Below are positions 5,007 through 63,414 of a DNA stretch of 64,000 bases, piece by piece (positions within the stretch are counted from its first letter, which is position 1; each line of letters starts with the position of its first letter). The stretch is from Bryum argenteum. Taxonomy: Eukaryota; Streptophyta; Bryopsida; Bryales; Bryaceae. The stretch lies in NCBI GenBank assembly GCA_037043015.1, contig CM073322.1, positions 8,567,601-8,631,600 of the forward strand. The letters are read 5' to 3'. The translations under genes were made by a program, and so were the position numbers. The notes under the pieces were generated by a model. That model saw nothing but the letters and a program-made list of their open reading frames with translations. It was not told the origin of the DNA and made no database searches.

Positions 5007-5069
5007 TTAGACATGCATCCAACACCTAACTCTTGAAGAGGCTATCACTCATTCACTTTTGATTATTAA

Positions 5070-6347
5070 CCCTTAAACGCCCATGGGGTCCAAAACGGGC
5101 AGCCCAAAATTGGATCACAGCATCTTTTGGACTTGGGCATCATGAATAGTGCACTTTTTGAACTTGGGCATCATGAATGGACCAATCAATGATGAGCTTG
5201 CAACCTCCTACAAGGTTATGTACAACCCCAACCTACCTACCACAATCCTTTCAAAGCACAAAATCATTCATACAAATTGTGATTTGAATTGTAAAATTTC
5301 ATTTTTGAATACATCATAAGAAGATGACCAGTTTGACATCAAAATATATGTGAAAAGTTGAGTACAGTGAGAGCTACAAGGAAGATTATGTTGGAATCAA
5401 GCCCCTCGGGCTTGCTTGGGCGTTTAACCCCTAAACGTTTCGATCCATTGGGCCCGCTGGAGTAGGGTCCAAAAACGTAAAAAATGTCAAGGTCAGTAAA
5501 ATAATGTGAGGGCAGTAAATCTAAAATCCAACCGTAGGATCTTGATCTCCATTGTCTAAAGATTGCATGGGCAAATATTTGTGCCATTTGGAGTTGGGAT
5601 GGGGCTTGATCCACTTGATTGAAGGCGAAAAAAGGGAGCCCGAAATGGAGGGGCAGTCACTAATTTTGGACTTTGGAGTGAAAAGTCGTATTACAAATTG
5701 CCCCGAAAGCAAAAATGGCAACTACAAATGGGTGAGGAATCAAGTAAAGAAGCTAATCCAAAAAAAAAAAAAAAAACATGCCTCTTTCCAATTGCACACA
5801 ATCCTACTTGAAATGGAAGTCACTTGGGATTCTTGTTTTTGGTGCTTGGTATTCCAAGGTCGCCCACACAAGCTCTTGTCCTCCGTGGACAAAAGATGAT
5901 GTAAGGTGGGCGGGCTTTTACAAAAAAAAGAACAGAAAGATGAACTCAAAATAGCTTGCAAGGTCATAAACATCATGCCACATGTCCACCATGATAATAA
6001 CAAAGCCAAGCGCATGCGATCTCATGCTTGTCGAAGCTCGAGGCTCTCTTGCCCCATTTCAATGCCTAATCGCCCCATTTCTATGCCCAAATGGCAAAAT
6101 TTCATACCGAAATAGACAAAACTCCTCTCATGACAAAAATGCAGCCCACTAAAATCGCTCTCGTAAAATGTAGGAATGAGGTATAACAACGGGGGTAAGT
6201 GCACAGTAAACTACACCCATTTACCCTTGAGGGAAAAAAAACGGCGGATGAAAAACAGCGACGACGAGAAGACGGGAAGAGTTTCAACATCCCCTGCTTC
6301 ATCCAGAATGTCGATTTTCGACATTCGGCCCGCTTAAGGGTTAAGGG
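5070..6347. mobile_element. TTAA-type MITE (361-bp family), split by a nested element
   Basis: It begins CCCTTAAACGCCC after TTAA (5066-5069). Its right end GGGCGTTTAA-GGG is interrupted after the internal TTAA (5424-5427) by a second element (5428-6340) and resumes as GGG at 6345-6347, followed by TTAA (6348-6351). Without the insert and one TTAA it is 361 bp, the same length as its inverted paralogue at 61763-62123, which it resembles along most of its length. TTAA duplication with CCC ends is typical of piggyBac-type elements. No transposase is present. Confidence 0.75.
5428..6340. mobile_element. TTAA-type element nested in another (913 bp)
   Basis: It starts CCCCTAAACG and ends CCCGCTTAAGGG, with TTAA on both sides (5424-5427, 6341-6344). 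Its right end, read in reverse, matches the left end of the element at 21065 (CCCTTAAGCGGGCC, then a TCGAAAA-type spacer and a gene-like GACATT block). The A-rich stretch at 5760-5776 and several short open frames inside are not supported as genes. Confidence 0.75.
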
Positions 6348-6351
6348 TTAA

Positions 6352-7553
6352 ACTACGAGGAGCACTAGCACTTACTACACTTCCTACCAATTTTCACAAA
6401 TAGACCTAGATTGAAAAATGTCAAAGTTCAAAATATTTGACTTTAGTAGTTTATACGCAAGACCGCTTCCAACATTTTCAAATGTAATATAAACTAAAAA
6501 TTTGTTGGTAAAGGACACTATTGAACATGTGCAACCAGGAAGGACATTTTAATAAAATCTAATAATAAGGGACACTATAAAATTAAGAACATGTGCAACC
6601 AGGAGGGACATTTTATTTAAAATCTAATTAAGAGACACTATATAATAAGAACATGAACGTCAACCAAGGAAAAATCTTCTAAAATGGAGAATCAAACCCA
6701 TATATATAAACCACTAATTTTTAATTAGTATAGTTGATTATTTTTTTTCAAACGTTCTAAATACCTCCAATACCTCCACACTAATCCTAAGAATATGAGA
6801 GCGGCAAAAGGGGCCCAAAACCCAAATTGAGTATTAATAGAACTAGGAACTTGCTTAGCTTAAAATATATTGCTTGCCATGTGGACAGTGAAAAGTCGGT
6901 AAATTAATTTTTTAATATCTTTTTTAAGCCTAAAAGTCGGTAAGTTTACTGGCAATTTCCAGGCTTCAAGCAAACTCTAATTAGGATGGCTTTTACCAAT
7001 TAAAGTATTGATGAAACTATTAATTGAACCCACGTTCCCCAAATTTTTATATTGCTCCTAATTTATTTATTTGCATTTATGTCAAATTTCCCACTAGAAT
7101 TTTCATTTCTCAGTATTTTTTACACACGTTGTGGTATTTTTACTATAAAAATTGGGGTCTTTGGAACTTGGAGCTGCTTACTAAGTTGTTAGACTATTTA
7201 TTTATTTAGACTATTTGGATGGATTTTGGGGTTAATGGAATATAAACTTAAATGGTAGTCATTGGCGTCGTACTGTGTAACAAAAGATCTTAGTGTGCAG
7301 TAGAACATTCATTATTACTCGAAGTACAGAGAATATTCTGTTTTGTCTAAGAATATTTCATATACATACAAATTTTTGTACTCATAGAGAATTTCGAATA
7401 TTTATGATAATAATTATTTGCGAGTACAAAAACTTATTCGTAAGTACGTATGAATGGAGCCAAAAGTATGAAGAATATTTTTGAAGATATAAATATATTC
7501 ATGTACTCTGGTAACCTTAACTGAACATGATATAAGGGAGAGTGCTCAAAGTT
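6352..7553. other. AT-rich intergenic sequence
   Basis: Very AT-rich. A short direct repeat (AACATGTGCAACCAGGA-type block) occurs at about 6522 and 6588. No gene recognised. Confidence 0.4.
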
Positions 7554-7562
7554 GGAGCAATA

Positions 7563-7970
7563 GACAGATAGATAGAAACTCCGGTCCCATTCTAAAGGGC
7601 CGCAGTAAAGGGCCGCAGTAAATGAAGTGTTGGTTCATAATGCTAATAATCCGACCCCCACCAGACAAGGCGCTGTTCGTAATGCTCATAACCTGACACC
7701 TACCGTACAAGTGAAGATTGGAACAATACTACTTCCCCCTTTCGAGGGTGGACACTATAACTACGTTGGTTACTAATGCCTTAAAGATACTTGACATTGT
7801 ATTTTCCCTAAAGGGCTTTGAGGTACCCATACAACAAGGTCCAAGGACCCCCACAATAGTTGAGTGGACTATAGTCGTGAGCACTATGCCGACATGCGGA
7901 ATAGAACCCACGACCTCTTCATTGGGGGCCATGAGCCCCAACCACCAATCGAAGGCTTGGGGTGTTTGGT
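7563..7970 (-). mobile_element. Full-length tRNA-type SINE, minus strand
   Basis: On the minus strand it runs from a tRNA-like head (A-box-like GGTTGGGGC segment, B-box-like GTGGGTTCTATTCC) through the shared body to a TATC-type tail at the left end. The 9-bp duplication GGAGCAATA flanks it at 7554-7562 and 7971-7979. It is 408 bp, longer than the copy at 62558, partly because of a short internal duplication near 7600-7710 (GGGCCGCAGTAAA twice, then an ATGCTNATAA block twice). Confidence 0.8.
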
Positions 7971-7979
7971 GGAGCAATA

Positions 7980-8949
7980 CCAATAATGAAGCATTAGGCT
8001 TCTTCACCCAAATATACATAATTATAGCTGCACACTTCAACAATACCATGTTCTGATACCAAATAATTATATTGTATCAAATTATGGCACCATTTCAGAA
8101 ACTCATGTGAGTCTACCTTCAAAAAATCTTAGCAAATTGTAAAAGAGTTCAAAATGATGAATCCACTTTGACTATCCTTCCACTTATTTTCTCCATGGAT
8201 GAAAGTTTCTTACATAATATATTTCACCACATATTAGGAAATCTGAAATTTGAGCCATCATTGAGCACTCCCCTTCATATAGGTAAAAAAAAAATGAACA
8301 CAAGTGTAAATTTGAGTGGAGTTTGGTGCGAAGATGATTAGACTTGCAGTTTTTGTATTGTTTGGTTAATCACTTCAAAGCATTTAGTAAGAACATGATT
8401 TTACTCGATGGGGCTTATAGTATACAACTCTCATAATGTGAAGAGGATCCTAACCCGTAAACAATTGTGGTGTTTTGGGAGCTCTAAAACCCAAAAATTG
8501 TGATTTTTTACCACCTTTTCAACTTTGGAGTATGAGAAAACTTATAAACTTTTACCACCTTTTCAACTGTGGAGTATAAGAAAACCTATACTTTTTAAAA
8601 AAACTTTTAACTATAGAATCTCGAACATATTAAGTTTTTGTAAGTAATAATGGTACAAATTTCAATCGTTGGATCTTGACTATTTTTGACATAATAACAT
8701 TCAAATTTTTAGAACGCTAACCTTGCAGAATTGGTAAGGGTTTCAACTTAGACCACTTTGAAATTATAGTAGTGATTGATTTAGTGATAGATATATTTTT
8801 TGAACAATTAAAAAATAAAAAGTCAAATTGAAACGCTCCACTTGGAAACAAGAAAAATGCTCCTCACACCTCAAAAATGCATATCTAACCTTGCAATCTT
8901 TACCACATGTACATTGTCGTATTCCTCACCTCCACTCGACTTCAAGATA
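7980..8949. other. Intergenic sequence, nothing recognised
   Basis: AT-rich; a locally repeated TTTTACCACCTTTTCAACT segment occurs at about 8506 and 8551. No gene seen. Confidence 0.4.
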
Positions 8950-9055
8950 AACAACAAGGTCAATGAACTCCCACCATGATGGAGTGAACTATGGTAATGG
9001 ACACCATACCAACATGAGAAATGAAACCCATAGTTTCCTCATAGCTTCACAACAC
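8950..9055 (-). mobile_element. Old SINE fragment, minus strand
   Basis: The reverse complement follows the SINE body (an ATGGTGTCCATTACCATAG-like stretch, then an AACAAGGTC-like stretch) with many substitutions. No tail or target duplication remains. Confidence 0.45.
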
Positions 9056-9572
9056 AACAATACCATGTACTCATTCCAAACATTATTAGGTGCCAAATCA
9101 GGACACCACATGTAAGTCCACCTCAAGATTCTATCACAACAAATTGCAAAAGAGTCCAAAACTGATAGATTCACTTTCACTATCCTTCCACTTGCACAAA
9201 AATCTGTTTACTTCACTACAGATTTGGAAATCTAGGATTCTTGAGCACTCTCAATTCGGTGGGTACTCTAAAAATTCTATCACTCAACAGGTGTCGACAG
9301 CCATTGTGTGACAATTTTGGAAAAAACGAAAGGGGTGCAGTAGCAGCAGCTTGCAAACTGCAAGACCACCCCGTCCTCCGGAGGTCAACCAACGACTAAA
9401 TCGGTCGCAAAACTCACTTTCCTCAACAAAATTAGGACTCTCCAGCTCTCGTGCAGTGACGGTTTTGCTACGAGCACTCGGAGGACCCATAGCACAGACG
9501 TTCGGAGCTTCACCAAATGGCGACTCCGTCCTTCAACCCAACCTTTCACGCCCTGCCAAAAAGGCGCAGTAC

Positions 9573-9792
9573 ATCGGTGGCTCAAAATCTTCACCATAGT
9601 CACTTTTCAGTGCAAAGGAACAGGATCGGTTGCTCCAAATCTTCACCATAGTCACTTTTCGATGCACAGGACAACAGGATCGGTGGCTCCAAATCTTCAC
9701 CATTGTCACTTTTCGATGCACAGGAACAGGATCGGTGGCTCAAAATCTTCACCACTGTCACTTTTCGATGCACGGAAACAGGATTGGTTGGA
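9573..9792. repeat. Tandem repeat, about 53-bp unit, four copies
   Basis: Units starting ATCGGTGGCTC(C/A)AAATC begin at 9573, 9625, 9679 and 9731, with a partial fifth at 9783. Each contains TCTTCACCATAGTCAC and ends near GGAACAGG. The unit length is not a multiple of three in all copies and no coding role is apparent. The preceding 280 bases are GC-richer but unrecognised. Confidence 0.85.
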
Positions 9793-10118
9793 TCTGATAC
9801 ACTGGCAGTAGCACTACAGGACCTGAGCGCGTGCGGCTCACCGGAATAGGACCAATTCCATCACTCTAATAACAGCCGGTGCTCTTGACAGTGAGAATTT
9901 ATATGGTGGTTGTTTGAATGCTTGCACGGCACCTGGTATTTGGTGAAGTACAGCATACGGCTCCAATTTTAGTTGCATTCACAACCGCCAATATTCCTAC
10001 AGCTTCGGCTTGGCTCCCTCGTAGTAAAGCAATTGGTACTAGTCGCTCTCCATTACTTTAACATGCATTAGCAGAAAAGTGGGTTGAGAATATCATGCAC
10101 TATACCAACGAGTACTTC
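9793..10118. other. Intergenic sequence, nothing recognised
   Basis: No gene or complete element recognised between the 53-bp array and the 112-bp array. Confidence 0.35.
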
Positions 10119-13556: not shown

Positions 13557-14535
13557 CCCTTAAACGCCCACGATGCGAAAAACGACATTTTGGATGTACA
13601 TCAGAAACTTTGAAGAGCCATATCTTCTTCATCTGAGGTCCTTTTTGGATGAAATCACTTGGGTTAGGTTCCAAATCAAGTCTAGTTTGTGTTGTAAAAT
13701 TTTCAAGCCCATACAATAAAGTATGAATTAATGGAATGCACTTTAGTGAAGACAACTCTTGTTTTTGGGTTTCCAAGCATGGGACATGTATTACCATTGC
13801 AAGCCAATTATGTGAAATTAAACATAGTTTTTCATGATTTTTTTTTCATGTTCATGATCTTAAGGTGATTCTTAACAACTTTTTATTGAGAAGTCTTCTT
13901 GATCCAAATGATTTTGCTATTGGATTTGCAATGATGTTTTGTCAACAGAAAAAGTGAGAAAATGAATGATATTTGAGGATCTATATCTCCCTCATCCACC
14001 GTTGGATTTCAACTTAATTTTTTGGGATGGCCTCCAATTAGAGTCTAGTCTAAGTGGTAGAAACCTTAACAAGATCGAAGATGTTTTGAAGATAAGGCAT
14101 GAAATTGAATGCAAAGGGTCTACTTTTGGACAATTTTTCCTTTTACAATGTTTGGTAGATTTTACCATTGCATGGCTTTTATTTGAGCCAAGAAATGTTT
14201 TTGATGAATTTTTTTTGGATAAAGGACTTATTAAGATGAAGGTGAACATCTTTCTAGTTGGTGATATTTTCATTGCAAATTTGCAATAGGTATATTGGTA
14301 GCATTTCCACCTCAATGTGAAAATGATGAAATTTTGCAATTTGTTTTTGATATTAATATGTTATGATCTCCCGATCTATAAGGCCTCATGACTCAAATTT
14401 TGGTCCACATGATCTTTGATAAGTCTATTACAAGTTTGTACGGTTGAGATCTTAATAGCTTCTCTTGATTTTCATCTATGACGATCTCTATGGAAATGTG
14501 CTTTTCTGCTAAAAATAGGCTCGGGCATCTAGGGG
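13557..14535. mobile_element. TTAA-type element, about 980 bp
   Basis: It begins CCCTTAAACGCCC after TTAA (13553-13556) and ends CATCTAGGGG before a degraded TTGA. The first 200 bases match the element at 21065 and, more weakly, that at 45354. A 107-codon open frame at 13966-14289 shares GRNLNKIEDVLKIRH with a frame at the same place in the 45354 copy. No known protein is recognised in it. Confidence 0.65.
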
Positions 14536-14539: not shown

Positions 14540-15730
14540 GTATGGGCCATGGCCTATGTGGAATTTCACGCACACATTTAAACTCGGTGTATTGTAATTG
14601 CAATTCTAGACCTCCCGGTGCTTATATCATTTCAACACTTTGTAATAGAATCAGACTCCTACTGTAACGTCCAAGTCAATCCGGAAATCAAGTCTTAATG
14701 AAGATCATTCAAAAAAGAATGTTAATCCCTAAGAGCCCAAGCAACAATTATATGACCTGAATTTTGAGGAGCTCTACTCGACTACAATAAGATTTTTTGT
14801 AGAGTTTTTCCTACTTTCCACAAGCTTGGTAAGTAGGTAACCGAATCCAATGTACACAACCTCGTTTGGATCCTCAAATTGTTCACAATAAGCTTTCAAA
14901 CACAAAGAGGGCAAGGTTTTTTAGTGTTAGGAAACTTACTATTTTGAAAAACTAATGGTGTTCCTTGCATGTTATTGTTGACCTCACTCTAAATTTATCA
15001 TATAATATGTGATTTGAGCCAATCATATCAATTTACAAATACTAATAATAGAAAGTATATTTATATCAATTTTCAAAGTTCTAGTATGTTTAATTCATTA
15101 AAGGACAAATATTCACTAATATCGGAAATTTAACTGTATTGATCTAATATAGAGATCGACTTCTTGATATTGTCTTTGGAGCGGTACTTCATAAGTATTT
15201 AGTAATGCATATTTGATAATAAATCTAAGTTTTTCTTTAAACCCCTTGGGCCTTTAGGGGTTAAAAGAATATACAAAGTCTTAAATTGCACTTACAGATT
15301 TCATCTTATCACATAGAAGCAAACAATCTATGAAGGTACGATCAACATTTGTGCGCTTGTCATAAAAGATAGACATAAACCTCTTTGAGAAATGCACAAA
15401 ATTCTCCATTACACAAAGAAGAGCAATCCAATAAGGCATAAATATTGACTTGGTTCTCTCGAAGACTTTTGAGATCTTTTCCTTTGATTTCGGTATCTAG
15501 TTTAAAAATATTGTATCCACTTTGAGATGGTTCTTAAATTCGTTTGACTTTCTATTTTTAGGTTATCATTTAGTCGAAATTAATTAATCTTCCATCTAGT
15601 GTCAAAATCTAATCTAAAATGAAGAACAAGACTTTGAGTTTTCTACATTATTAATATTGTTATTGGTCATAGGCTCAACTTAATGGATATGGCTTTGCAT
15701 TGAGTTTGAAGACAAAAATGTATAGACAGT
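14540..15730. other. Intergenic sequence downstream of the aquaporin gene
   Basis: AT-rich. A palindromic block at about 15236-15264 (AAACCCC ... TAGGGGTTAA) looks like the end of another TTAA element. It would contain the 3' UTR of the NIP gene, but no clear polyadenylation site stands out. Confidence 0.4.
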
Positions 15731-20984: not shown

Positions 20985-21830
20985 TCATTGAGATGAAGCT
21001 GAACAACTTCCTAGATGGTCATTTTTTTATTGCAAATTTCATGTTGGTAGTATTTTCACTTTAACCCTTAAGCGGGCCAAATGTCGAAAAACGACATTTT
21101 GGATGACACCAACTTTGGAGAGCCATAACTTCTTCATCCGGACTCCGTTTTGGACGAAATCACTTGGGTTGGGTCCCAAATCAAGTCTAGTTTATGTACT
21201 AAAAATCTCAGACCCATACAATGAAGTATGAATTAATGGCATGCATTTCAGTGACAGCAGCCTAGTTTTAGACATTTTTTCCTTTGAAAAATTTAGGGCA
21301 GTTTTCACCATTGCAGGGCCATAATTTGCACAAAGAAATTTTTCTCATGGTTTTTTTTTGTTCAAGGATGCTACTGAGATGAAGGTGAACAACATTCTAA
21401 TTGGTGACTTTTTCATTGCAATAAGTCTAATGGTAGCATTTTCACTTTAAAGTGAAAATGATGAAATTATGTGATCATTTTTGAGTATTAATACATTATG
21501 ATCTCGCAATCTATGAAGCCTCATGACTCAAAATTTGACCCACATGATGTTCAATATGTCTACGACAAGATTGTACGGTTGAGATTTGGATAACACACTT
21601 TTACCTCCACCTATGACAATGCTTTTGAGGATGTGTTCATTTTACTACAAATGAGTCAAACCATTTAGGGGTTAAAGTGAAAAAGATAGTTTTTTGTAGT
21701 TTTTTTGCGCACTAAAATGTTATGACGTTGCAATCTATAAGATCCCATGAGTCAAATTTTGGTTTACACGATCCACAACAAGTCTATTACAAGTTTGTAA
21801 TATTGACATATATACTATTTGTTATGTTAT
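20985..21830. mobile_element. TTAA-family host copy, interrupted
   Basis: 20985-21064 (ending TATTTTCACTTTAA) and 21672-21830 (starting TTAAAGTGAAAA) together match the internal region 21370-21570 of the element lying between them. They are the halves of an older family member whose internal CACTTTAAAGTG site received the insertion. The outer ends of the host copy are missing or unrecognisable. Confidence 0.65.
21065..21671. mobile_element. TTAA-type element, 607 bp, nested
   Basis: It starts CCCTTAAGCGGGCC and ends CATTTAGGGG, with TTAA at 21061-21064 and 21672-21675. It is the best-kept member of the family that includes 13557-14535 and 45354-46262. The interior is non-coding. Confidence 0.8.
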
Positions 21831-25784: not shown

Positions 25785-26312
25785 CAGTAGTATATAAGGG
25801 ACTTCCTTTCTTTTCTCAGGTCATAGAAATGTGTTGTGCAACTGTGAACACTGATTTTTGGTGTGGTTCTCTGAGGTCTGAAGTCTCGTAATGAAACCCA
25901 TCTAATTTTGCCTTTTCTGTGTGGAGTTACTGTTCTCAAATGCTCGGCATTATTGTGACATGTCAATTGACTGCTGAATGCATCCCATGTGCTGAATCCA
26001 TTGCTGATTTGTAGTCTAGATTTTTACATGATAGTTGTCCTCCCCCTCCAAATATCTCAATAGACGTCCCTCAAAATTGATACACAAATTGATTCAGATG
26101 ATCTGCCACTTTTCAGGAAGGTGAACCAAAGGGAATGGAACAAACTAGTTTGAAGTTTGAACGAATACTTTTTAAACATAATTTTTTTGGAAAGAGTAAT
26201 CTCAGTGTTCAGTGCAACCAGTTAAGTTTAATTGAGTTGAAATGCAACAGCTCCTAACTAAAGGTAATTCATGTGAGTACCGTATTGTCAGCAAATGCCT
26301 AATTTCATAGTG
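25785..26312 (+). pseudogene. P450 array flank and eroded exon 2/intron 2 of remnant B
   Basis: 25785-26030 matches 37605-37820. Just before the Tc1-like element, the stretch with GAAATGCAACAGCTCCTAAC and GCAAATGCCTAATTTC matches the end of exon 2 and the start of intron 2 of the P450 copy at 34100-34172. This places the Tc1-like insertion inside intron 2 of remnant B. Confidence 0.55.
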
Positions 26313-26314
26313 TA

Positions 26315-29126
26315 CAGTAGGGTCCAACATGGAATGGCGTTTTTGGTTTTGCAGTGGGAAAAAATTCAGCACTGCCAACTTTGAAAGCCTCCTGAGAGCT
26401 CAAAAATTGGTATTTTAACACGAAATTTTTAACAAAGGTTTATCTTTAAGTTAATTACATGTATGCCAAATTTCAAGGCCAAAAGTTTCACTGGAAAAAA
26501 CTTATTCAAAATCTACCAACATTGGTAACTGCAGAAATTTTTTCACTGCTGCCAACTTTGACAGCGTCCCAATGATTGAATAAATTTTTTATTACCATGA
26601 AATTCTTGGACCAAAAACCTCTTTAGGTTAAGAACATATGAAAAAAAAATTCAAGGCCAAAAGATTAATACAAAAAAAGAAATCCACATTCTACCAACAT
26701 GTGTAGTTGTGGGAAATAAATGGGGGAAACCATTTTGTTGCTACCAACTTTGACACCCTCCCCACGGTTGAGAAATTGTTTATTTACCATGAAATTTTTG
26801 GCACAATATGCTCTTTATGATGCCAACATTCATACCAAATTTCAAGGTCAAAAATTATATATAAAAAAAAACATTTACAATCTACCATTGTGTGTAGTTG
26901 TAAGATACCTATTATCAAAGATATTGAAATGGTTGAAGTATGTCATACAATCATGCTTCTAGATTGAAATTTTCAAGATGATGCAATCTCTAATCATAGA
27001 TGCTTCTCAAAAAATCAAGGATAGCCAAATTTAGTTGTGTGCACTTGTCACATCTCAAAAAGTGCACCTGTTTAAAAATTGGAGACCATACGTGCATGAA
27101 GAAGATTTTTTCTCTCAACAAGAATGCTTGCATTTGCAATGAAGCATTATAGGAGGTGGATTTATGTGGATTGATGAGAGAAACAAGTGATGTTGTATGA
27201 CATGAGTTAATTGAGAGAATGAGAAATGGAATGAGTGTCTGAGGTATGTGAGGTATATATGGAGGTATGTGAGATGACTGTGATGACTGCTGAGGTATAT
27301 GAGATGCCTGTGGTGACTAGTGAGGTATGTCCTCTCAGCTTCTGGAACTTCATTCCATTCAGTTACCCTAAAAAGGGATTTAACAACTGATTGGTGAGGT
27401 ATGTGAGATGAATGTGGTGACAATTTAGAGGACAAGCCACCTTGTAAGTTACTAATTTATTTAAGCATCCCATAATGGGTTTTTAACAGATGACTGTGGT
27501 GACGGTGAGGTATGGTGATTGAGTGAAGGTTGTGAGCCAGGATGATGGTGAGTAATGGCTATTTCAGATGAAACTCGAGCTCGTATAGTAGGTTTGAGTG
27601 AGGCAGGGAAGACAGGAGTTGAGATTGCATCTATTGTTAGTGTCCATGTTAGAACGGTTCAGAGGATAGTGAAAAGATTTCGAGAAAATGGAACCTATAA
27701 TTGCAAACCTTGTAGTGGAAGTCATGCTGAAAAACTTAGTGATAGAGATGTTCGTGCTAGTATATGTGTTTCAAAAACTCATCGTCGCTCGACACACTCT
27801 GAGATCACTAACATATGCTCTACTCAAGTATCTAGATCGACTATTCGAAGGGCCTTACATGAGAATGGCATTTTCAGACGACTATTAAAAAACCATTTCT
27901 GACACTTTGTCACATGTCTAAACGATTGGCATTTGCTCAAAAGTATTGTGGTGGACTATAAAAGAATGGGAGAGAGTTGTTGGGACATATGAGTCTACCT
28001 TTGAAGTTGGAAAAATTTCTAAATAGATTCATTTTGGAGAAATGCATATGAGCGCTATGCATCAAGTTGTATAGTTCCAACTTTTAAGAATGGAAGAACT
28101 TCTTTGATGATTTGGGGTGCATTTGCTGGAGGGCAAAAGTCACAACTTGTTTTTATGTCCAAGGATAGACGATCTGGTAAGGATTTTGTTGAAGTGGTTT
28201 ACAATGTTGAGTTGCTTCATTTTATGAGTAGAGTGCCGAACGGAGTGCTCATGGAACATGGCGCACCCGTTCATCGTAGCAAAGTATGTGAAGAATGGAG
28301 ACAAACACACCTTTTGGAGAAGCTCGATTGGCATGCAAATTCTCCTCATCTCAATCCAATTGAAAACCTTTGGAAGATTTTGAAAGATGTTGTGCAACAT
28401 GGCCCAATGAATATGTCCAAAAATTTAGATGACTTGAAGGTAATTATTGAAAGAGAGTGGAGGTTAATCAATGATACAAAGCTCCTTCAACTATGTCATT
28501 CTATGCCCTCTAGGTTACAAGCAATGATTGAGGCAAAAGGAAGACATACACGTTGGTAGTTGTAAATGTTTTTTTTTATATATAATTTTTGACCTTGAAA
28601 TTTGGTATGAATGTTGGCATCATAAAGAGCATATTGTGCCAAAAATTTCATGGTAAATAAACAATTTCTCAACCGTGGGGAGGGTGTCAAAGTTGGTAGC
28701 AACAAAATGGTTTCCCCCATTTGTTTCCCACAACTACACATGTTGGTAGAATGTGGATTTCTTTTTTTGTATTAATCTTTTGGCCTTGAATTTTTTTTTT
28801 CATATGTTCTTAACCTAAAGAGGTTTTTGGTCCAAGAATTTCATGGTAATAAAAAATTTATTCAATCATTGGGACGCTGTCAAAGTTGGCAGCAGTGAAA
28901 AAATTTCTGCAGTTACCAATGTTGGTAGATTTTGAATAAGTTTTTTCCAGTGAAACTTTTGGCCTTGAAATTTGGCATACATGTAATTAACTTAAAGATA
29001 AACCTTTGTTAAAAATTTCGTGTTAAAATACCAATTTTTGAGCTCTCAGGAGGCTTTCAAAGTTGGCAGTGCTGAATTTTTTCCCACTGCAAAACCAAAA
29101 ACGCCATTCCATGTTGGACCCTACTG
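26315..29126 (+). mobile_element. Tc1/mariner-type (IS630 superfamily) transposon, 2.8 kb
   Basis: The ends begin CAGTAGGGTCCAACATGG and are flanked by TA (26313-26314, 29127-29128), as in Tc1 elements. The inverted repeats are about 567 bp (26315-26881 and 28560-29126) and nearly identical. Each is built of three diverged modules starting with (G/A)CCAACTTTGA at 26374, 26551 and 26743, each followed by an ACCATGAAATT-like and a TTTCAAGGCCAAAA-like block. Between them lies one transposase gene in decay. The P450 copies C and D show the unoccupied site (TA at 34172 and 43011). Confidence 0.9.
27555..28559 (+). pseudogene. Tc1/mariner-type transposase, inactivated
   Basis: The N-terminal part (27555-27902) has the two helix-turn-helix regions of Tc1 transposases (TRARIVGLSEAGKTGVEI, VSRSTIRRALHENGIFRR). 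The catalytic part continues after a frameshift near 27890 and another near 27957, and an in-frame TAG follows at about 28023. The second half (28107-28559) keeps MIWGAFAGG and NPIENLW. Two acidic residues of the DDE triad are changed: the motif normally reading DEST is YEST, and the position normally D in the GAPxH motif is H (MEHGAPVH). The Glu of NPIENLW remains. The enzyme would cut and rejoin DNA ends, but this copy cannot. Confidence 0.85.
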
Positions 29127-29428
29127 TACATTATCAGTGTAAATTGTTGGCTTGTGAGAGGAGACTGTACATATTCTCTTTTCTTTAATGAACATGGAGC
29201 CTTAATGAATAGGAGCAAAGTATGTTCTTGTTCTGCTGTAACTAAATGTCTTCATCTCTACATCTGTAAATTGTATCCAATATCAAAATAGAGCTTTCTG
29301 TTTAATTGATGTCCGAACTATATCTCGACTACTTGAAACATGGCTTTCAATTGTGTGGTACTGGGATAGGATAGGATACAGCTGCTTGTCTTGTATTACA
29401 CCATGTGATTCGTCTTGAATCATGGCAG

Positions 29429-45353: not shown

Positions 45354-46262
45354 CCTTTAAACCTGTCGAATGTCAATAGACAACATTTTGAAGACGGGCA
45401 AAAAATTTAATGAGTTTTAATTTCTTTTCCTATTTTGATTAAAATCACTTGGGTTTGGTCCCTAATCTAATCTAGTTTGTATGGTAAAAGTTGCAAATTC
45501 ATAAAACAAATCTTCAATAAATGACATGCATTTTAGTGAAGGCAGCTCTTGTTTTTGAGTTTTCATGGAGGTTGTTTTACCATTGTAAGGGAATTATGGG
45601 AAATCGAAAAGATCTTTTTATGAAAAAAATTCATAGAATCATAACCTTTAGATGAAGAATAATAACTTTCTCGTTTGTAAGAATTTTGATCCAAATAACT
45701 TTGGTACTCAGATTTGCAATGATGTTTCTACGATGAAAAAAGTGAATAAATGGATGCTTTTGGAGGAGGTATATCTCCTTCATCCACTGTTGGATTTTGA
45801 CTTATTTTTTTGTAATGAGTTCTTATTAGATTTTAGGTTTGGTGGTAGAAACCTTGACAAGATCGAAGATGTTTTGAAGATAAGGCATACATTTGAGTGG
45901 AAAGGGTTGAGTTTTAGACTATTTTTTTCTTTGCAATTTTTTGACAGTTTTCACCATTGCAATGCCATTATCTACACAAAGAAATTATTCACATGGATTT
46001 ATTTTTTTATCAAAGGTGTTGTGGAGATGAAGGTAATCATATTTGAAGTTGGTGATTTTTACATTGCAATAAGTATATTGGTAGCATTTTCACTTCAAAG
46101 TGAAAATGCTCTGATTTTGTGATGTTTTTTGAGTATTAGTATGCTTTGATTTGCAATCTATGAAGCCTTATGATTTAAAACATGACTCACATGATGTCCA
46201 ATATATGACACTTTTTTGAGAATGTTTTCTTTTTTGTACAAATAAAACGAATCATTTAGGAG
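45354..46262. mobile_element. TTAA-type element, diverged, about 910 bp
   Basis: Degraded ends (CTAA-CCTTTAAACCTG on the left, CATTTAGGAG-TTAT on the right) and an interior collinear with 13557-14535. The frame at 45652-46122 (156 codons) contains GRNLDKIEDVLKIRH, nearly the same as in the 13557 copy. No known protein recognised. Confidence 0.6.
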
Positions 46263-53450: not shown

Positions 53451-54014
53451 CCCCTTGATGCTTCTTGAGACTCTAAATGTGTTTTTGCAATTTTGGGCAG
53501 CTTAAATGAAGTAGTTGTGTTTAAGGTTTTTATTGTATGCTCTTTATATTGCAAAGTGTGTATGGTAAGATTTGCAAAGTCATATTCTAATTTTTGAGTC
53601 TTCTAGGACATTCCTTGGGTTGCGAGTTGAAATGGGGTATCTTTAAAAAGTTTGACATTTTATTCTTTTTTTTAAAAAATATGTGTATAACTAAACCATT
53701 GCTTGAGTTTTGAAGTAACCCAAGTCAAAAAGTTTATGGAATCTACAAGGGCAGCTTTCAAAAATTTCAAAACCAATCTTCACAATGTCCACACAAACTT
53801 GGGAGACAAACTTTGGGTGTTATGATTTCTCAAATGGTAAACATTCAATGGTCAAGTAACTGGAATAGTTTTTGGTACAAGATCAAACTTACGATTGGAA
53901 ATTTAAGAAAAAGAATGAAAATTTGATCCACATCTCCCCACTCGTAGTGCATAGAGGTCAAAAATCAAGTTTTGAAGTTTCAAGTTCTCAGAAAACACCA
54001 AGAAGCTCAAGGGG
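53451..54014. mobile_element. TTAA-type element, 564 bp
   Basis: It starts CCCCTTGATGCTTCTTG after CTAA and ends CAAGAAGCTCAAGGGG before TTAA (54015-54018); the ends are inverted copies with one or two differences. The interior is collinear with the left part and centre of 62149-63410, including CTCAAATGGTAAACATTCAA, the unoccupied form of the SINE insertion site there. Confidence 0.75.
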
Positions 54015-55343: not shown

Positions 55344-55345
<2 letters not shown>

Positions 55346-55946: not shown

Positions 55947-56181
55947 CCCTTAAACGTCAAACCCAGCCCGAGGGGTTGGGTTTTTTTTTTAGAGAATCTT
56001 GCTCATAACTTACACTCCATTATACCAAATGGAATTTTTAAAATTCCAAACTGAGCACCTTAAAGAGATCTATACTTTCTTAGAATAGAGCTCACGCAAA
56101 TTAAAAATAGAATAATGCTAAAAGTGGAGTTTTAAAAGAGATTTTGGGTGTGGTATCAGGACAACATATGACGTTTAAGGG
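55947..56181. mobile_element. TTAA-type MITE, 235 bp
   Basis: Inverted ends CCCTTAAACGTCA / TGACGTTTAAGGG, 13 bases exact, flanked by TTAA (55943-55946) and TCAA (56182-56185). Just outside the left end is an inverted copy of the repeat unit found outside the right end. Confidence 0.75.
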
Positions 56182-56182
56182 T

Positions 56183-56460
56183 CAAGAGACGTTTCCACTA
56201 TAAGAGACGTTTAAGAACATTTACACTTTTAAGAAACATTCACACTATAAGAGACGTTTAAGAACATTTACACTATAAGAGACGTTTAAGATCATTTACA
56301 CTATAAGAGACGTTTAAGAACATTTACACTATAAGAGACGTTTAAGAACATTTACACTATAAGAGACGTTTGACATTTGAGAACGTTTAAAAACATTTGA
56401 GAACGTTTAAGAACATCTACACTATAAGAGACGTTCAAGAACATTTACACTTTTCTAATG
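56183..56460. repeat. 28-bp minisatellite, about nine units
   Basis: The unit is AGACGTTTAAGAACATTTAC followed by ACTATAAG. Some units are truncated or altered towards both ends. It starts directly at the right end of the 235-bp TTAA element and shares ACGTTTAAG with that element's terminus. Confidence 0.9.
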
Positions 56461-56474
56461 TCAAATGCACTTAA

Positions 56475-58735
56475 CCCCTAAAGTTGAAATTGACCACATT
56501 GTGGTTGATTTTCTTTTTGAAAAATAGGATGTTTTTGCAAAATCTGAAATTTTGACTGAATATAACTCAAGGTCTGTATGGTGGGATTTGAAAAAATTTG
56601 TTTGGTGGACTCACTAGACAATTCTAGACAAGATCATAAGGTTGGGTTTCTCAAAATTAATTCCAAAAAAAAAAATTTGTTCATGGATTTCAAATATGGA
56701 CATTTGGAAGTGCATAGTAGAGCTTTTCCTTGAGGAATTCAATTTTGTACAAATTTATATCATTTTTTTTATTTTTTTGATTTTATATATATTTTCTATA
56801 TTTTCTATTTTTTTAAAATGCAAGGGGTTACCCCAAAACGTAAACAAAAAAATACTCTGGTCAAGTTGCAAAGTATTTCCTCCCGAATCCCAGGAATTTT
56901 ATCCTCATTCTAAAAGTACTTCTTTATGGCAATCCTTAAAAGGTAAAAGTGATTCTTTGCTATTTTAGGAGACTTTGATGAAGAATCAAATTTTGGTATA
57001 TTGGAATAAAATTTTGGTATATTGAAATAAAATTTTGTATGGGTTTGTGTAATATACAACATGTTTGTGGTAGAATTTGCAAATTCGTCGGATTTCAATT
57101 TGTCAAATATTTCAATGCAAGTTTTCATTTAAGAGCCTCGGTAGGGCCTATTTTTAATTGATTTTTTTATTGTTTTCAAATTTTATTGTTTATAAATTCC
57201 TACCAAAGTTATTGAGTGGTCCAAGGGCACAGCCAAGGTATGGGTATCACTTTTTGTCAAGACTAATTAGGTGATTTTTGGTTGAAACATTCAACGTTCA
57301 TCATTTTTTTCCATTATTATCGATTACAAAGAGTACAAAATCATTTAAAAATATCATACATGTAATTGGGATCAAGATGCACATTTCTAAGAAAAAAATT
57401 ATTCAAATTTTTTATTTTTGGATCATTGAACCCTCCACAGTAAATTGCATATTGGTGGGATTTGCAGGCATCATGGTGCAAAAATCATTAATTGTTTATT
57501 TGTCAAACTAACTATTTCATATAATGCACAAGTATATGTAAGTCATATCCAAAAATGGTATCAAAATGTGATCATTTGATGTATCGAATGATCGTTTCTT
57601 AGGATTTTGTGTAATTAGGACACAACTTACTTTTTCAACTAAATACCTAATAAAAACTCTTAATATTCTTCAATGCGCATGATTTTTTATTTTTTTTGGT
57701 AGGCTATAAGTGCTGTAAATTGAAACCACATTTGGTGTTCTCATACTTAACTTTATTTAGAAGATGGACATGTTTGACACACTTGCATGAGCTGAAATTG
57801 TACTTGGGACAACTTTTTTGGACACCCTTAGCTTAACTGTACTTGGAAGTTGAAGCTCATACCATGTGTACAAGGGCAATATTCTAATTTTACAAGAGCT
57901 AATAAGTTTCCAAAAGTCTCCATGGACATCTTTAACTTAGTCATTTATATGGAAAAACATAGTGTATCTCTACAACAATACCCAAAATGTTTTGCATCAA
58001 CTTTCAACATTACGATCTCACAAATAATTTAGATCCAACGGCTGAATTTATACATATTATTTTAATTAGTAGCTAGGCCCAAGATCCTACAATTAAATTA
58101 CATTTTTTAATTTATTTTTTTTAGCATACCATAATTCTAACAAGGTGGTAGAATTTTGCAGTTTTAGGTTTGCAACTTCTAAAAACATAGAGATTTTAAA
58201 CATTTAACTCTTCAAGTTTCGAGGCTCAATTTTCACATTCTCCTTACAGTGGCCTCTTTTGATGCAAAGTGAATTTTTCTTTCTCAAGTTTCGACGTATG
58301 TTTTGACATATGTAAGTGTAGGACCTAGCACCTAGCTTATGCATACATACCAAATATTAAATTCAAGTTCCTTACCATTTGTGGGTTCTAATATTCAAAA
58401 TCTGAGTTTGTTTAGAGAGTAAGGAATTTGAAGTTATTAAAAATGAATTATTTTGGGCAAATTATGAGAATCACAAGGATGAATTACAATTATGGGCACA
58501 ATTTGAAATAAATGAGAAATACACTACAATTGTGGGTGAGTTTCAACATGCCATTTTTATTTTTTTTGAGAGTACATAGCTTCTAATTCATGAGGAATTT
58601 TGATGCAAGAATGGTCTTGTTAAGAAATACTCTAGGATTTGCAATTAGTTTGAGCTTCATAACTCAAAAATGGAGTAAATGCGACCAAAAGCAAAAGCCA
58701 CCCAACTAGGCCTCACATAACTTTGAGGGAGGGAA
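56475..58735. other. AT-rich sequence with diverged TTAA-element traces
   Basis: TTAACCCCTAAAG at 56471 and GGGGTTAC at 56824 may bound a very diverged member related to 53451-54014 (shared GTATGGTGGGATTTG-like block). The rest is unrecognised; no gene seen. Confidence 0.4.
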
Positions 58736-58739
58736 AAAA

Positions 58740-58890
58740 AAAGAAATAGGAACACCAGACCCTTGTGGGGTTGGCGTGAGTAAAATGCCAGTTGAACCTA
58801 CCTTTGATGATATGCCCACACGACATACCAACGATGACGTGGGACTACTAACCCCTCTTAGGGTGGACACTATAACCACAAGTAACCAAT
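58740..58890 (-). mobile_element. SINE fragment, minus strand, diverged
   Basis: Contains the minus-strand form of the SINE 3' half (CTTAGGGTGGACACTATAACC, preceded by a GGCGTGAGTAAA-like stretch). Head missing. Confidence 0.45.
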
Positions 58891-59710
58891 AGCCATTAAA
58901 CTAGTAACCAAATATTTTTAATATGTAAGTTGTGATTTGTTTGTTGGTTTTCTACAAATTGATATAAATGTAGGTTATTGATCCAGTTGGTCCTCACATT
59001 GTTGACATTACAGTAATATATTTGGTAAAAATATAGCTGTGTTGTAACGGTGGTTTGAGGGGGAACGAGTTACATGGGATACGTGCATAATGCTCTCACC
59101 TTGGAAAGGACGGCCATGCAATTGTGGTTCTTTTCTTTATGAATTTTGATGCAAGTGTGACGGTTTGATTCCCAAGAGTTGAATGATGATTCCAAAGAGA
59201 AACGGAACGGTAGGTTGGTGAAGATACTAGTACAACACCATGAGTGATGCGAATCCCCCAATAAACTGAGCCCCCCCCCCCCTCCTCCCTCCTATTATTC
59301 CCATTCCCAATCCCTCCTTTTTGATTTGATTGATTGATTGAACCTGGCAATGCATCCATCCACAACTGAACCGCCACACTCTCATTCTTTAGTGTACTGA
59401 AAAATTGATCAATATTTGGTTATCTACTCGAAAAAGTAAAAAATAATAAAAAATCTTTGTTCATGTTTGGGTCAGAGGGGAAAAAGATTCCTCATCAGAA
59501 TGTGGGAATAATTTGAGGAGGAAAAAAAATGCTTAGTTTGCTTTGCATGATGGAATCTTTTGTTGTTGTTGTTGTGTGTTGCGTAATGCTGTGAATCTCT
59601 GTGTGTGTCGCTCCAATTAAGAGACGCGGCTTGTTGCCCACCAATTAACCAAGGACCGTAATCAAGACTCCATTACAAATATCTAGTCAGGGGAAAGCTT
59701 GGGCCCTCAC
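58891..59710. other. Intergenic sequence, nothing recognised
   Basis: Contains a run of 13-14 C at about 59269-59282 and a (TTG)n tract near 59560. No gene seen. Confidence 0.4.
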
Positions 59711-59712
59711 TA

Positions 59713-59928
59713 CACTAAATTTGATAATTAGTGTTCGATATACTAATTTACATAAACATGTTATAAGTTTTTACTGTTGTTCAATAATTTTACCCACTAT
59801 ATTGGCCAAGATGGGGTCCTTATATAGTATCAGAATCAATGCTCTTGGTAAAATTTTTTAACTGAAAGTAAAAACTTATAGCATTTTCAAATCTTATAAT
59901 AATCTAACACTAATTATCAAATTTAGTG
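59713..59928. mobile_element. Short MITE with CACTAAAT ends
   Basis: Left end CACTAAATTTGATAATTAG and its exact inverted copy at the right, flanked by TA (59711-59712, 59929-59930). The centre matches 4361-4551, but the subterminal arm sequence is different while still self-complementary. Confidence 0.65.
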
Positions 59929-59986
59929 TAGTAGAAAAGTGCCCATTATCTACCTTACTAAATTCGCTCATTCCACTGAATCCTAA

Positions 59987-60370
59987 GAGCATCTCCAACA
60001 GAGACTCTACGAAACGACTCTAGCAAAGGCTTTGGGCGAGCTTGGGGATGTGCCAGAGGGCAGAAAAGTCGGTCCAGTGGCACCACACCCAACGATGGCT
60101 CTCGCGGCACCAGTGCGCGTCGACGTAAGAGGTGCAGCCTGCGACGAAGCTCTCCCACTTTCCGCCATCCTTTCCAAAAAGCTGCAAAACCCAAGAAGAT
60201 TCGCTTTGACCAGCTCTCAAGTGCGGTGTAGAGCTTTGTATATCATGAGATTTGGCCGAGCCCGACTTCCATGCTACCGTTGCACAGTGAACGATGCGAT
60301 TCCACTTTCAGAGGTTGGCAGCAGGTGGCCGTTTTTTTTGGCCTCCCAGAGTCTTCGTTGGAGACACTTC
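59987..60370. mobile_element. Diverged PIF/Harbinger-like MITE
   Basis: Starts GAGCATCTCCAACAGAGAC after TAA (59984-59986). The right end GTCTTCGTTGGAGACACTTC is an imperfect inverted copy. The interior is GC-rich; open frames on both strands are not supported as genes. Confidence 0.6.
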
Positions 60371-61758
60371 AATATAATGAGTGACTCCAGTAGAAACTGC
60401 ACACTTTTCAAGCACTCTTTGTTGATGAAAAATGAGATGGTGATTGAGATTGAATCTCAATGACCAACTGGTGGAAAGTGATAGTCCCTATGGTTTTCAA
60501 AGTCATACTCGCTCTTTTTCAGCTAAGTTTGACTCTTAGGTAGTCTCTACTGCATCTCTTGAAGTAGTTTTGAGCAACCTAGGAGAAAAGCTCCGTAGAA
60601 GAGAGAGAGAGAAACACTATGTTCCAGTTAACCAACTCTACAATTCCGTGGAGTGAGACAAATGACAAAAGTTGATCAATAGGATAAAACACGGAGGAAG
60701 GTGAGCTACGATCAACATCAATGGTTTCTAAAAAAGGAACAAAAACCTAGCATCAACTTCACCCTTTATACTACGGACTAAGACTACCAACCACATTCAA
60801 TCCTAGTCACAAACTTCAAGTAGGGCAAGATATGCTCAAAACTAGACAAGAGTACTTGTATTTCATTCCTTTATTTTTTTTCCCAGCAATCTTTGACTTT
60901 GACTAAAAGGATATTTGCTACTTTATCTTGAACCCAACAACAAAGACATGTGGCAATTTAGATGGTACAATGAGTCCAAAAGTGTACACGTCAGGATGAC
61001 AGAACGGCAAAAAGTGAGTATGAACGGCTGCGATCTGCGCTTGATGGGTTGATCGAACGGCTGAGAATGAAGCAAATGTATAGGAACATGGCTATCGGAA
61101 GAATAAAGCATGAGCATGAGTGGGGGCAAAGGACACTCGACAAAGTCGTCAGAAGTGCAGAATTGCATGTTGAATTACACAACTCTACTTTTTTATCACA
61201 ATCAGCCATTGATTAGCTCTACAATTAGACCTTTGTATTTTCTTTTGTTTTGGCTTGGAAATAATTAATTATGTGTTTGATCATTTTAGGAAAATGTCTT
61301 ACGTCTAAGGTAGAGGCACCTATAACCGACCACTTAAGGATTTTAGCACATGATATTAAGGTATATATATATTTTTTTTAGAATTTTCCATGTGTGCAAA
61401 CATAAGGTTCTTGTTGAGTGCAAAAATTTTCGTGATTTTATTTGCATTATTCAAATAGTTATAATTGTTTAAAGTGAAAAGTTGCTTGGAACCTAAAGCC
61501 GATCACATGCTCAAATATACAAATGAGGTACATCTGTTCTTTCAAAATCTAGGAATTGAGCTTGATCGGTTATTGGTCGCCCGTCGGGAATGGGTCTGTC
61601 TACCTTAAAATGGAGCAGGTCCCACAATGGAGCTTTGGTAATCTTCACTTACAGGAACATAATTGCTTCTCCATGCAACAGTACCATTTGTTCACTGAAA
61701 TCATCATAGCATATTACTTTAGGGCACCATTTTAGGAACACCAATATTATTTGGTGGT
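60371..61758. other. Intergenic sequence, nothing recognised
   Basis: No gene seen. 61620-61745 resembles 380-480 near the start of the window. Confidence 0.4.
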
Positions 61759-61762
61759 TTAA

Positions 61763-62123
61763 CCCTTAAAGGCGTCTGTCAGCCCCTCATGCTGTTTTCC
61801 AACAGAATCTTGTGTGTAGCTCTTTCGATTCTAAAATTTTCACTTATTTTTTTATATCATTATGGTCACCTTTTTGTGATGCATCTACAAAGTGAAATCC
61901 TACAATTCAAATCGCAATTTGTATGAGTGATTTGTGCTTTGAAAGGATTGTGGTAAGTAGGTCGAGATTGTACAAAACCTTGTAGGAGGTTGCAAACTCG
62001 TCATTGATTGGTTCATTCGTGGTGCCTAAGTTCAAAAAGTGCACTATTCATGTTGCCCAAGTCCAAAAGATGCTGAGATCCAATTTTGGGCTGCCCATTG
62101 AGGAGTGGAAGGACCTTTGAGGG
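61763..62123. mobile_element. TTAA-type MITE, 361 bp
   Basis: Starts CCCTTAAAGGCG after TTAA (61759-61762) and ends TTTGAGGG before TAAA. It is an inverted paralogue of the split element at 5070-6347 and has exactly the same length. Shared blocks include TTTTGGGCTGCCC and AGGATTGTGGTA. Confidence 0.7.
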
Positions 62124-62148
62124 TAAATGAACTTGATATGGATTTTAA

Positions 62149-63410
62149 CCCCTAACTTTCCTTGAAGCCCGAAATGGGTTTTTGCAATTCCGGGCAGCCT
62201 AGTTGAAGGGGTTAGAAGTAATATTTTTGACTAAGAATTTTATTGGGTCCTCCTTATACTGCAAAGTGTATGTGGTAAAATTTGCAAAGTCAAATTCCAA
62301 TTTTTGAGTCTTCTAGGACGATTCTTGGGTTGCGAGCCGAGATGGGGCAGCTCAGAAAAGTAACTTTTTTGATTATTTTTTTTTGAAACATGATCATTAC
62401 TAAATCACTACTCAAATTTCAAAGTGACTCAAGTCAAAAAGTATACCAATTTTACAAGGGCAGCCTCCAAAATAATTTAAAACCAATCTTCGCAATACCC
62501 AAAAAAACTTGGGAGACAAACTTTGGATGTTATGATCTCTCAAATGGTAAACATCCAGGCACCACAAGCCTTGGCTTGGTGGTTAGGGCTTAGGCCCCCA
62601 ATGAGGAGGTCGTGGGTTCTATTCCCCATGCCGGCATGGTGCTCACCACTATAGTCCACCCAACTATTGTGGGGGGTCCTTGGACCTTGTTGTATGGGTA
62701 CCTCAAAGCCCTTTGGGGGGATACTATGTCAAGTATCTTCAAGGCATTAGTAACTAGGCTAGAAACTAGCGTAGTTATAGTGTCCACCCTCGAGAGGGGG
62801 AAGTAGTATTGTTCCAATTTCCCCTTGTCCGGTGGCCATCGGGATATTAGCATTACGAACGGACACTTCATTCACGCCGGCCCCTTGCAAAGGGACCGGA
62901 GTTTCTATCTATCTATCTATCTGGTAAACATCCAACGGTCAATTTTTTGAAGAGTAATCATGCATATTCTTAGGTACAAGATCTTACGGTTGGAAGTTTC
63001 AAAAAAAGAAAATAAATTGGTTTACACCCCCACAAGTGCTTAGAGGTAGAGTTTTTTTGGGTATTGCGACGATTGGTTTTAAATTATTTTGGAGGCTGCC
63101 CTTGTAAAATTGGTATACTTTTTGACTTGAGTCACTTTGAAATTTGAGTAGTGATTTAGTAATGATCATGTTTCAAAAAAAAAATTTCAAAAAAGTTACT
63201 TTTTTGAGCTGCCCCATCTCGGCTCGCAACCCAAGGATTGTCCTAGAAGACTCAAAAATTGGAATTTGACTTTGCAAATTTTACCACATACACTTTGCAG
63301 TATAAGGAGGGCCCGATAAAATTCTTAGGCAAAAATATTACTTTTAACCCCTTCATCTAGGCTGCCCAGAATTGCAAAAGCCCATTTCGGGCCTCAAGGA
63401 AAGTTAGGGG
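62149..63410. mobile_element. Long foldback TTAA-type element, split by a SINE
   Basis: Ends CCCCTAACTTTCCTTGA.. and its inverted copy, flanked by TTAA (62145-62148, 63411-63414). The arms (about 62149-62520 and 63040-63410) pair over about 370 bp with few differences. Without the SINE and its duplicated target the element is about 885 bp. The centre is collinear with 53451-54014. Transcription through it would give a long hairpin RNA. Confidence 0.85.
62558..62922 (+). mobile_element. Full-length tRNA-type SINE, 365 bp
   Basis: The head contains an A-box-like TGGCTTGGTGG and a B-box-like GGTTCTATTCC, followed by a body and a (TATC)n tail. A 12-bp duplication GGTAAACATCCA flanks it (62546-62557, 62923-62934). 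It is inserted in the loop of the foldback element. Related copies: 7563-7970, 3237-3395, 54925-55217 and shorter fragments. Confidence 0.9.
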
Positions 63411-63414
63411 TTAA

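Follow-up and report, generated by a model that had tools for sequence, protein, structure and literature searches.

piggyBac is familiar chiefly from animals and as a tool for gene delivery, and its cutting chemistry is known from the insect element. The TTAA-duplicating Kolobok elements use a transposase of a different family. A survey of animal piggyBac elements names CCCTT, in the text available, as their best-conserved motif (PMC10813416). In the brown alga Ectocarpus, piggyBac makes up 0.48% of the genome, according to the passage on it. Plant repeat tables, as far as accessible, list 1230 piggyBac copies (0.00%) in Ceratopteris and one copy in Stipa, and the accessible part of a review names 'PiggyBac' among the angiosperm MITE superfamilies. 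A MITE survey of 207 plant genomes, four of them from bryophytes, assigns its elements to Micron or to one of five superfamilies; 'TTAA' is absent from its main text (PMC12550479).

We analysed a window of 64,000 nucleotides from Bryum argenteum (contig CM073322.1, positions 8,567,601 to 8,631,600), together with the whole genome. An earlier note on the window had listed nine starts of MITE-like elements with CCCYTAA-type ends, under a count of at least eight, and had read them as piggyBac-like from their TTAA targets and CCC ends.

Results

Terminal repeats and TTAA flanks

All nine listed starts are present in the sequence, each with the inverse of the CCCYTAA-like start at the far end and with TTAA or a decayed TTAA on both sides (Table 1). 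Two features come in addition, the complete element D and a lone left end, whose right end was not found. TTAA stands at both flanks of A (taking its outer copies), B, E and J; C, G, H and I have one decayed flank each, and in F flanks and ends are both decayed (CTAA CCTTTAA ... TTAGGAG TTAT). The element ends read CCC...GGG, and a short TIR starting with CCC is a feature of piggyBac. Together the ten complete elements, insert included, account for 6730 bp, about 10% of the window. Like MITEs, they are short, TIR-flanked, present in many copies and devoid of a transposase; inspection of their frames by eye revealed no long transposase-like frame.

The claim that the groups have no shared interior, with sizes of 235 to ~980 bp, had to be revised. 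Within groups interiors are common (A and I, 85% over 304 bp; C, E and F, 73-83% over the main pieces; G and J, 76% over 400 bp), and the final 42 bp of B are 93% like the left end of E. The size range is exceeded by J, which owes its length to an inverted repeat and an insert. MITE A is split at 5428-6340, B having inserted into the TTAA of A's own right TIR; our grouping of paired elements unites A and B solely because the A sequence used still contained B. Two genes of the window have the plant proteins aquaporin NIP2-1 and ferruginol synthase as their best solved-structure matches.

Table 1. Elements of the window and transposons read to both ends elsewhere in the genome
Feature	Position in window	Strand	Length (bp)	Flanks (left/right)	Remarks
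MITE A	5070..6347	.	365	TTAA 5066-5069/TTAA 6348-6351 (outer)	length after joining, including both TTAA copies; family A/I
MITE B	5428..6340	.	913	TTAA 5424-5427/TTAA 6341-6344	
MITE C	13557..14535	.	979	TTAA/TTGA	family shared with ~972-bp elements of fetched C1 loci
MITE D	14726..15260	.	535	TTAA/TTAA	first base T instead of C
MITE E	21065..21671	.	607	TTAA/TTAA	family C
MITE F	45354..46262	.	909	CTAA/TTAT	decayed ends; family C
MITE G	53451..54014	.	564	CTAA/TTAA	family G/J; kin to transposon E36
MITE H	55947..56181	.	235	TTAA/TCAA	left end resembles 5' end of transposon L029
Lone left end	56475..56500	.			E36-like (TTAACCCCTAAAG); end coordinate arbitrary
MITE I	61763..62123	.	361	TTAA/TAAA	family A, reverse orientation
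MITE J	62149..63410	.	1262	TTAA/TTAA	365-bp inverted repeat; 364-bp insert 62558-62921; kin to E36
Transposon L029			4161	TTAT/TTAT	read to both ends
Transposon E31			4667	CTAA one side, TTAA other	read to both ends
Transposon E32			4942		read to both ends
Transposon E36			5697		read to both ends

With at most one mismatch, TTAACCCYTAA occurs 16 times in the window (3.2 expected), a count that none of 100 shuffles equalled. Without the flank, CCCYTAA was not enriched in the window (18 against 15.2 expected; 26 of 100 shuffles reached that number) and provides no evidence. Across the genome (258.8 Mb) we counted 9205 occurrences of TTAACCCYTAAACG versus 7 of its reversed control, and 7868 of TTAACCCYTAAACGYC; variants with a different first base numbered 206 and those with a different fourth base 161. 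The flanks in loci L001-L028 and the window were TTAA in 45 cases and TTGA in one, which is not an unbiased test of TTAA because these loci were chosen from TTAA-flanked matches on C1; some left ends appear in alternative pairings in the list of paired ends of the fetched loci.

piggyBac transposons of the same genome

The genome search that the earlier note had proposed, for a larger member encoding a transposase, found piggyBac transposases (PF13843) enclosed by the same kind of ends. PF13843 gave 116 scored matches (best 7.4e-82), and none of 14 control genomes matched. Ninety-three of the 116, as counted by eye, contain no stop within the match, a share that may be biased upward because the first look gave 775 candidates, of which these 116 were scored. 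Of six loci fetched (L029, L030 and L031 were chosen because listed ends lay close by), four were followed out to both ends, which makes four of the 116 scored; here the transposase lies between CCCYTAAA ends in elements of 4.2-5.7 kb. A fifth element is indicated by two ends on C1 that face each other (23339974 and 23345172) and enclose a transposase match. One of the elements has a second copy at another locus, with 99.8% identity across the 4.3 kb of sequence read, which points to recent piggyBac movement in this genome.

D295, D375, D488 and D491, which we take to be the catalytic Asp residues of piggyBac transposase, do not vary among four proteins from this genome. Both PF13843 and solved piggyBac structures (PDB 6x67 and PDB 9c0f) were hit by the enclosed transposases; the match to the Trichoplusia ni enzyme (PDB 6x67) reached 4.4e-34, with the aspartates aligned. 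The Cys-rich domain that marks the C-terminus of piggyBac transposases can be made out in the proteins of L029 and L031 and not in those of L036 or L030 as read, and none of the examined transposases had a Pfam zinc-finger match above cut-off. The transposases fall into at least two groups, ~36% identical.

Subterminal sequences

Similarity to the four transposons past the first 14 bp was reached by none of 200 shuffles, which preserve single letters only, for G and J at both ends and for the left ends of H and of the lone end at 56475. By the same test, the right end of H and the left end of I (68 and 92 of 200 shuffles reaching the score) and elements B, C, D, E and F had no subterminal match to the four transposons. 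The retention of pieces of both sides suggests that MITEs of the E36 group arose from larger members by internal deletion.

Two motifs recur at fixed positions. In L029, E31 and E32, GGGCAGC lies at 28-29 of the gene-downstream end and GCCCNNGGGG at position 20 of the gene-upstream end. The two motifs occur at the same positions in MITE A: GGGCAGC at 28 of its left end, and GCCCGAGGGGC in its right end at 24 as joined, or 20 without the extra TTAA. The left end of H shares the second motif (GCCCNNGGGG) and the right end of I the first, again with positions unchanged. Neither motif is present in E36 itself, although GGGCAGC is found at 44-45 in G, J, L009_5908 and L023_7813. A loose form of the second motif recurs at position 10 in further ends, those of E31, E32, A and D.

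The right end of D begins with the same 16 bp as the left end of E36. For D past the first ~22 bp, and for B, C, E and F, the match to the four transposons is confined to the TIR, so that these five elements lack an autonomous partner of their own among the transposons read. This, and the division of the transposases into at least two groups, could mean that the origin is mixed: G/J, A/I and H would be piggyBac, and some of the rest (B, C/E/F, D) would have been moved by a piggyBac lineage, or another transposase, beyond those read. We consider this unlikely, since B, C/E/F and D carry the common TIR and TTAA, elements of C-family size (~970 bp) occur among the 28 matched pairs described below, and the transposons compared come from just four of the 116 scored loci.

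Target-site duplication

Perfect filled TTAA sites read identically if the elements are of Tc1/mariner type, with a 2-bp TA duplication, a TIR ACCCYTAA and a preference for T-TA-A targets. The flanks of F (CTAA...TTAT) and G (CTAA...TTAA) are compatible with such elements, and a Tc1-like DDE_3 transposase is present in the window. The comparison with unoccupied paralogous sites, proposed earlier, confirmed a 4-bp duplication: for the nested insertion of B in A, two unoccupied paralogues (loci L007 and L030) have one TTAA each. A second approach does not start from TTAA and uses the rare ends with a variant first or fourth base (the first 100 of 206 and, from the same range, 81 of 161). All 28 facing pairs of a first-base and a fourth-base variant carry an identical non-TTAA 4-mer on both sides; the remaining ends (72/100 and 53/81) had no partner in the opposite list. 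In one pair both partners were fourth-base variants, and their 4-mers were unequal (TTAC/CTAA); two first-base variants were never seen facing each other among the 100 listed. The 28 identical pairs exclude a 2-bp TA duplication and, with piggyBac transposases enclosed by such ends, leave the Tc1/mariner reading practically no chance. Separately, the window's own Tc1-like element (~26307-29134) was considered as the mover of the MITEs and ruled out by its different ends (CAGTAGGGTCC).

Kolobok elements share the TTAA target and are an equally negligible candidate, because their termini are 5'-RR and YY-3' in the available text of PMC9587614, against 5'-CCC...GGG-3' here, and the transposases within such ends match PF13843 and solved piggyBac structures.

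Discussion

The piggyBac interpretation thus gains support from the 4-bp duplication and from the piggyBac transposases found between such ends. The window elements are almost certainly non-autonomous piggyBac MITEs of several families, probably served by full-length piggyBac elements of the same genome. In the mechanism that we propose, full-length elements elsewhere in the genome would supply a DDD-type transposase, which would bind the common CCC(T/C)TAAA ends and subterminal motifs and excise the element, by cutting chemistry presumed analogous to that of insect piggyBac. The excised element would enter a TTAA, duplicating the 4-bp target, and the transposase would probably act on the window MITEs in trans.

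The two or more transposase lineages, the near-identical copies and the thousands of MITE ends may, more tentatively, reflect a plant piggyBac population of large size and diversity that can still move, a native TTAA-specific system possibly gained from outside plants. Such a plant would allow direct tests of piggyBac mobility, silencing and MITE birth. The number of piggyBac-type ends in this plant, in the thousands, and its many open transposase genes suggest that MITE sorting can miss a class.

The elements had been called little described in land plants, which is partly right: piggyBac already appears in plant repeat tables and reviews, in the parts accessible, and a literature search covering listings and accessible text found no account of a plant in which piggyBac MITEs are described alongside their own transposons. 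The accessible entries share the superfamily label with our elements but report minute quantities, or assign the label by TIR and TSD; here the transposase genes are open, the ends match and copies run into the thousands. Ectocarpus piggyBac belongs to the same superfamily in another photosynthetic eukaryote; Ectocarpus, however, is no land plant, and the passage on its piggyBac makes no link to MITEs.

The Bryum elements resemble animal piggyBac (T. ni, PDB 6x67; piggyBat, PDB 9c0f) in their CCC ends, PF13843 and aligned aspartates, and in the duplicated TTAA, for which the available text of PMC10813416 gives TTAG and CTAA as examples of rare variants. As in insect piggyBac, whose asymmetry is described in the accessible part of PMC10140906, the two ends carry different subterminal motifs. 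The Bryum elements differ from animal piggyBac in the plant host, the TIR (CCCYTAAACGCC or CCCCTAAAGGCC), the 4.2-5.7 kb full-length elements and the thousands of short copies. With piggyBac in plants already in print, this is a new and large case of a known kind.

Abundance of the ends

All nine element starts reported in the earlier note were located in the window, and their flanks inspected. CCCYTAA alone showed no enrichment in the window; preceded by TTAA and with at most one mismatch, it matched 16 times, against a shuffle mean of 3.2, and none of 100 shuffles reached 16. The window spans C2:8567601-8631600. In the genome (258.8 Mb, 25 contigs), TTAACCCYTAAACG had 4588+4617 matches, against 3+4 for a reversed control pattern, and 7868 ends were flanked by TTAA. 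On contig C1 (44.1 Mb) TTAACCCYTAAACG is sparse, the first 100 matches extending to 21.2 Mb (~4.7/Mb versus 35.6/Mb genome-wide), and the contig has 5 of the 116 scored transposase-domain matches described below; as a guess, C1 could be a sex chromosome or a gene-poor contig. Two C1 loci, L016 and L022, carry the same MITE insertion, with 8-bp flanks that are nearly equal and, on the right, a further end that both loci share; they are thus probably a segmental duplication.

TTAA is a duplicated target

The proposal that TTAA is a target duplication was borne out by a nested insertion, compared with unoccupied copies, and by pairs of ends with rare flanks. MITE B is lodged within the right TIR of MITE A (start 5070), in the order TTAA-B-TTAAGGG-TTAA. 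In family A copies at two other loci, L007 and L030, the same site is empty, with one TTAA; these copies align with the joined flanks of MITE A over 67 and 66 letters, with 3 differences each.

A perfect TTAA site, however, fits equally a 4-bp duplication and a 2-bp duplication of TA by an element ending in ACCC, and we therefore examined ends with one changed base. VTAA-flanked ends had 206 matches genome-wide (reversed control, 9) and TTAB-flanked ends 161 (control, 1). The pairing test covered the matches listed up to C5:2658308, 100 VTAA and 81 TTAB. Duplication of TA predicts facing VTAA/VTAA pairs, but there were none among these matches. Also against it, 28 pairs of a first-base and a fourth-base variant faced each other at 80-992 bp, and every one had the identical 4-mer on both sides (CTAA, TTAG, ATAA or TTAT); by our own arithmetic, independent letters at the listed frequencies would agree in ~37% of pairs. 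A single facing TTAB/TTAB pair had unlike 4-mers (TTAC/CTAA). The remaining 72 VTAA and 53 TTAB ends could not be paired across the two lists; their mates may carry TTAA or have been mutated or lost. Duplication of the 4-bp target is thus directly observed.

Transposons encoding piggyBac transposase

Larger members encoding a piggyBac transposase, for which the earlier note had proposed a search, do exist. The transposase domain PF13843 had 116 scored matches in the genome (out of 775 first-look candidates; best E 7.4e-82), 93 of them without a stop within the match by visual count, and none in 14 control genomes. Of six loci fetched, four could be followed from end to end, and the anatomy of these elements is seen directly. 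L029, L030 and L031 were picked for listed ends nearby, L032 by score and L035/L036 by equal scores; L032 and L036 turned out to have such ends too. L035, on a different contig, is 99.8% identical to the transposon of L036 (E36) across the 4301 bp fetched, and one outer end was seen in L030. A further element on C1 is implied by facing ends enclosing a domain match.

Transposons and other features
Feature	Position	Length	Flanks	Remarks
Transposon L029	L029:149-4309	4161 bp	TTAT/TTAT	ends CCCTTAAACGTCA; 647-aa open frame
Transposon E31 (in L031)		4667 bp	CTAA/TTAA	
Transposon E32 (in L032)		4942 bp	TTAA/TTAA	transposase split over two frames
Transposon E36 (in L036)		5697 bp	TTAA/TTAA	ends CCCCTAAAGGCCCA; 831-aa frame stop to stop
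Implied element	ends C1:23339974 and C1:23345172			PF13843 match C1:23341202-23342323
MITE B	window 5428-6340			
Shared MITE insertion	L016:5317-6287; L022:4036-5007			
Tc1/mariner-like element	window ~26307-29134			partial DDE_3 transposase at 28023-28559
Insert in MITE J	window 62558-62921	364 bp		13-bp direct repeat TGGTAAACATCCA on each side
28-bp tandem array	window 56228-56451			TTTAAGAACATTTACACTATAAGAGACG; adjoins MITE H

The L029 protein gave a full-length match to PF13843 (6.9e-78) and also matched T. ni piggyBac (4.4e-34). For the E36-type protein, the matches were piggyBat at 3.2e-28 and T. ni piggyBac at 3.9e-25. D295, D375, D488 and D491 are invariant among four proteins of this genome and align with the piggyBac sequence. 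Identity to the L029 protein is 61% for L031, 60% for L030 and 36% for L036, indicating at least two transposase lineages.

Relation of the MITEs to the transposons

MITE ends were compared with transposon ends, leaving out the first 14 bases, against 200 letter shuffles. Both ends of MITEs G (53451) and J (62149), the left end of H (55947) and the lone left end at 56475 matched above all 200 shuffles; the scores of A (both ends) and I (61763; right end) were reached by 1 to 5. No subterminal match to the four transposons was found for B, C, D, E and F (their ends reached by 24 to 156 of 200 shuffles), the right end of H (68/200) or the left end of I (92/200).

L029, E31 and E32 share GCCCNNGGGG at position 20 of the gene-upstream end and, in the opposite end, GGGCAGC at position 28 (29 in L029). 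MITE A has both marks (GGGCAGC at 28, and GCCCNNGGGG at 20 once an extra TTAA is removed), H has GCCCNNGGGG at 20 and I has GGGCAGC at 28. As counter-evidence, E36 has neither; GGGCAGC lies at 44-45 in G, J and two relatives from C1 (L009_5908, L023_7813); and looser forms of GCCCNNGGGG occur at position 10 in E31, E32 and A (3' ends) and in D (right end). Over the terminal ~400 bp of E36, the two C1 relatives show 73-74% identity, and they match its other side too; G and J have matches to pieces of both sides. In their sequence, all four are as expected for internally deleted relatives.

By eye, the insert in MITE J has a tRNA-like start and a TATC run at its end, and it looks like a SINE. 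In the array beside MITE H, visual inspection shows that the unit contains ACGTTTAAG, resembling the MITE end, and ACTATAAGAGAC, resembling the reverse complement of its left flank; the array may thus have grown from the junction of this MITE. The Tc1/mariner-like element has inverted repeats of ~600 bp with arms 98-100% complementary, and TA adjoins both CAGTAGGGTCC ends by eye; a passage of PMC7466625 places Physcomitrium mariner-like elements near fungal ones.

Mechanism and comparison with known systems

Under the scheme of recognition, cutting and insertion known from insect piggyBac, the transposase would recognise the TIR plus a subterminal motif, cut the element at its CCC end and insert the excised element at TTAA. 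By this analogy we infer that it acts in trans on the MITEs, with the same cutting chemistry.

Kolobok termini, as given in a section of PMC9587614, are unlike those found here. The pertinent part of an animal piggyBac survey (PMC10813416) gives CCCTT as the most conserved TIR start and TTAG, CTAA and GTAA as rare targets, and the Bryum argenteum elements are alike in both. For plants, excerpts of the literature record 1230 piggyBac copies in Ceratopteris (PMC6890710) and one in Stipa (PMC8319324), piggyBac among the superfamilies present in every group studied (PMC4438587) and among those of angiosperm MITEs (PMC10004981); the category is unused in the relevant portions of a MITE survey of 207 genomes (PMC12550479). 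Since piggyBac is already a label in plants, the elements described here are a new, large case of a known kind rather than a new kind.
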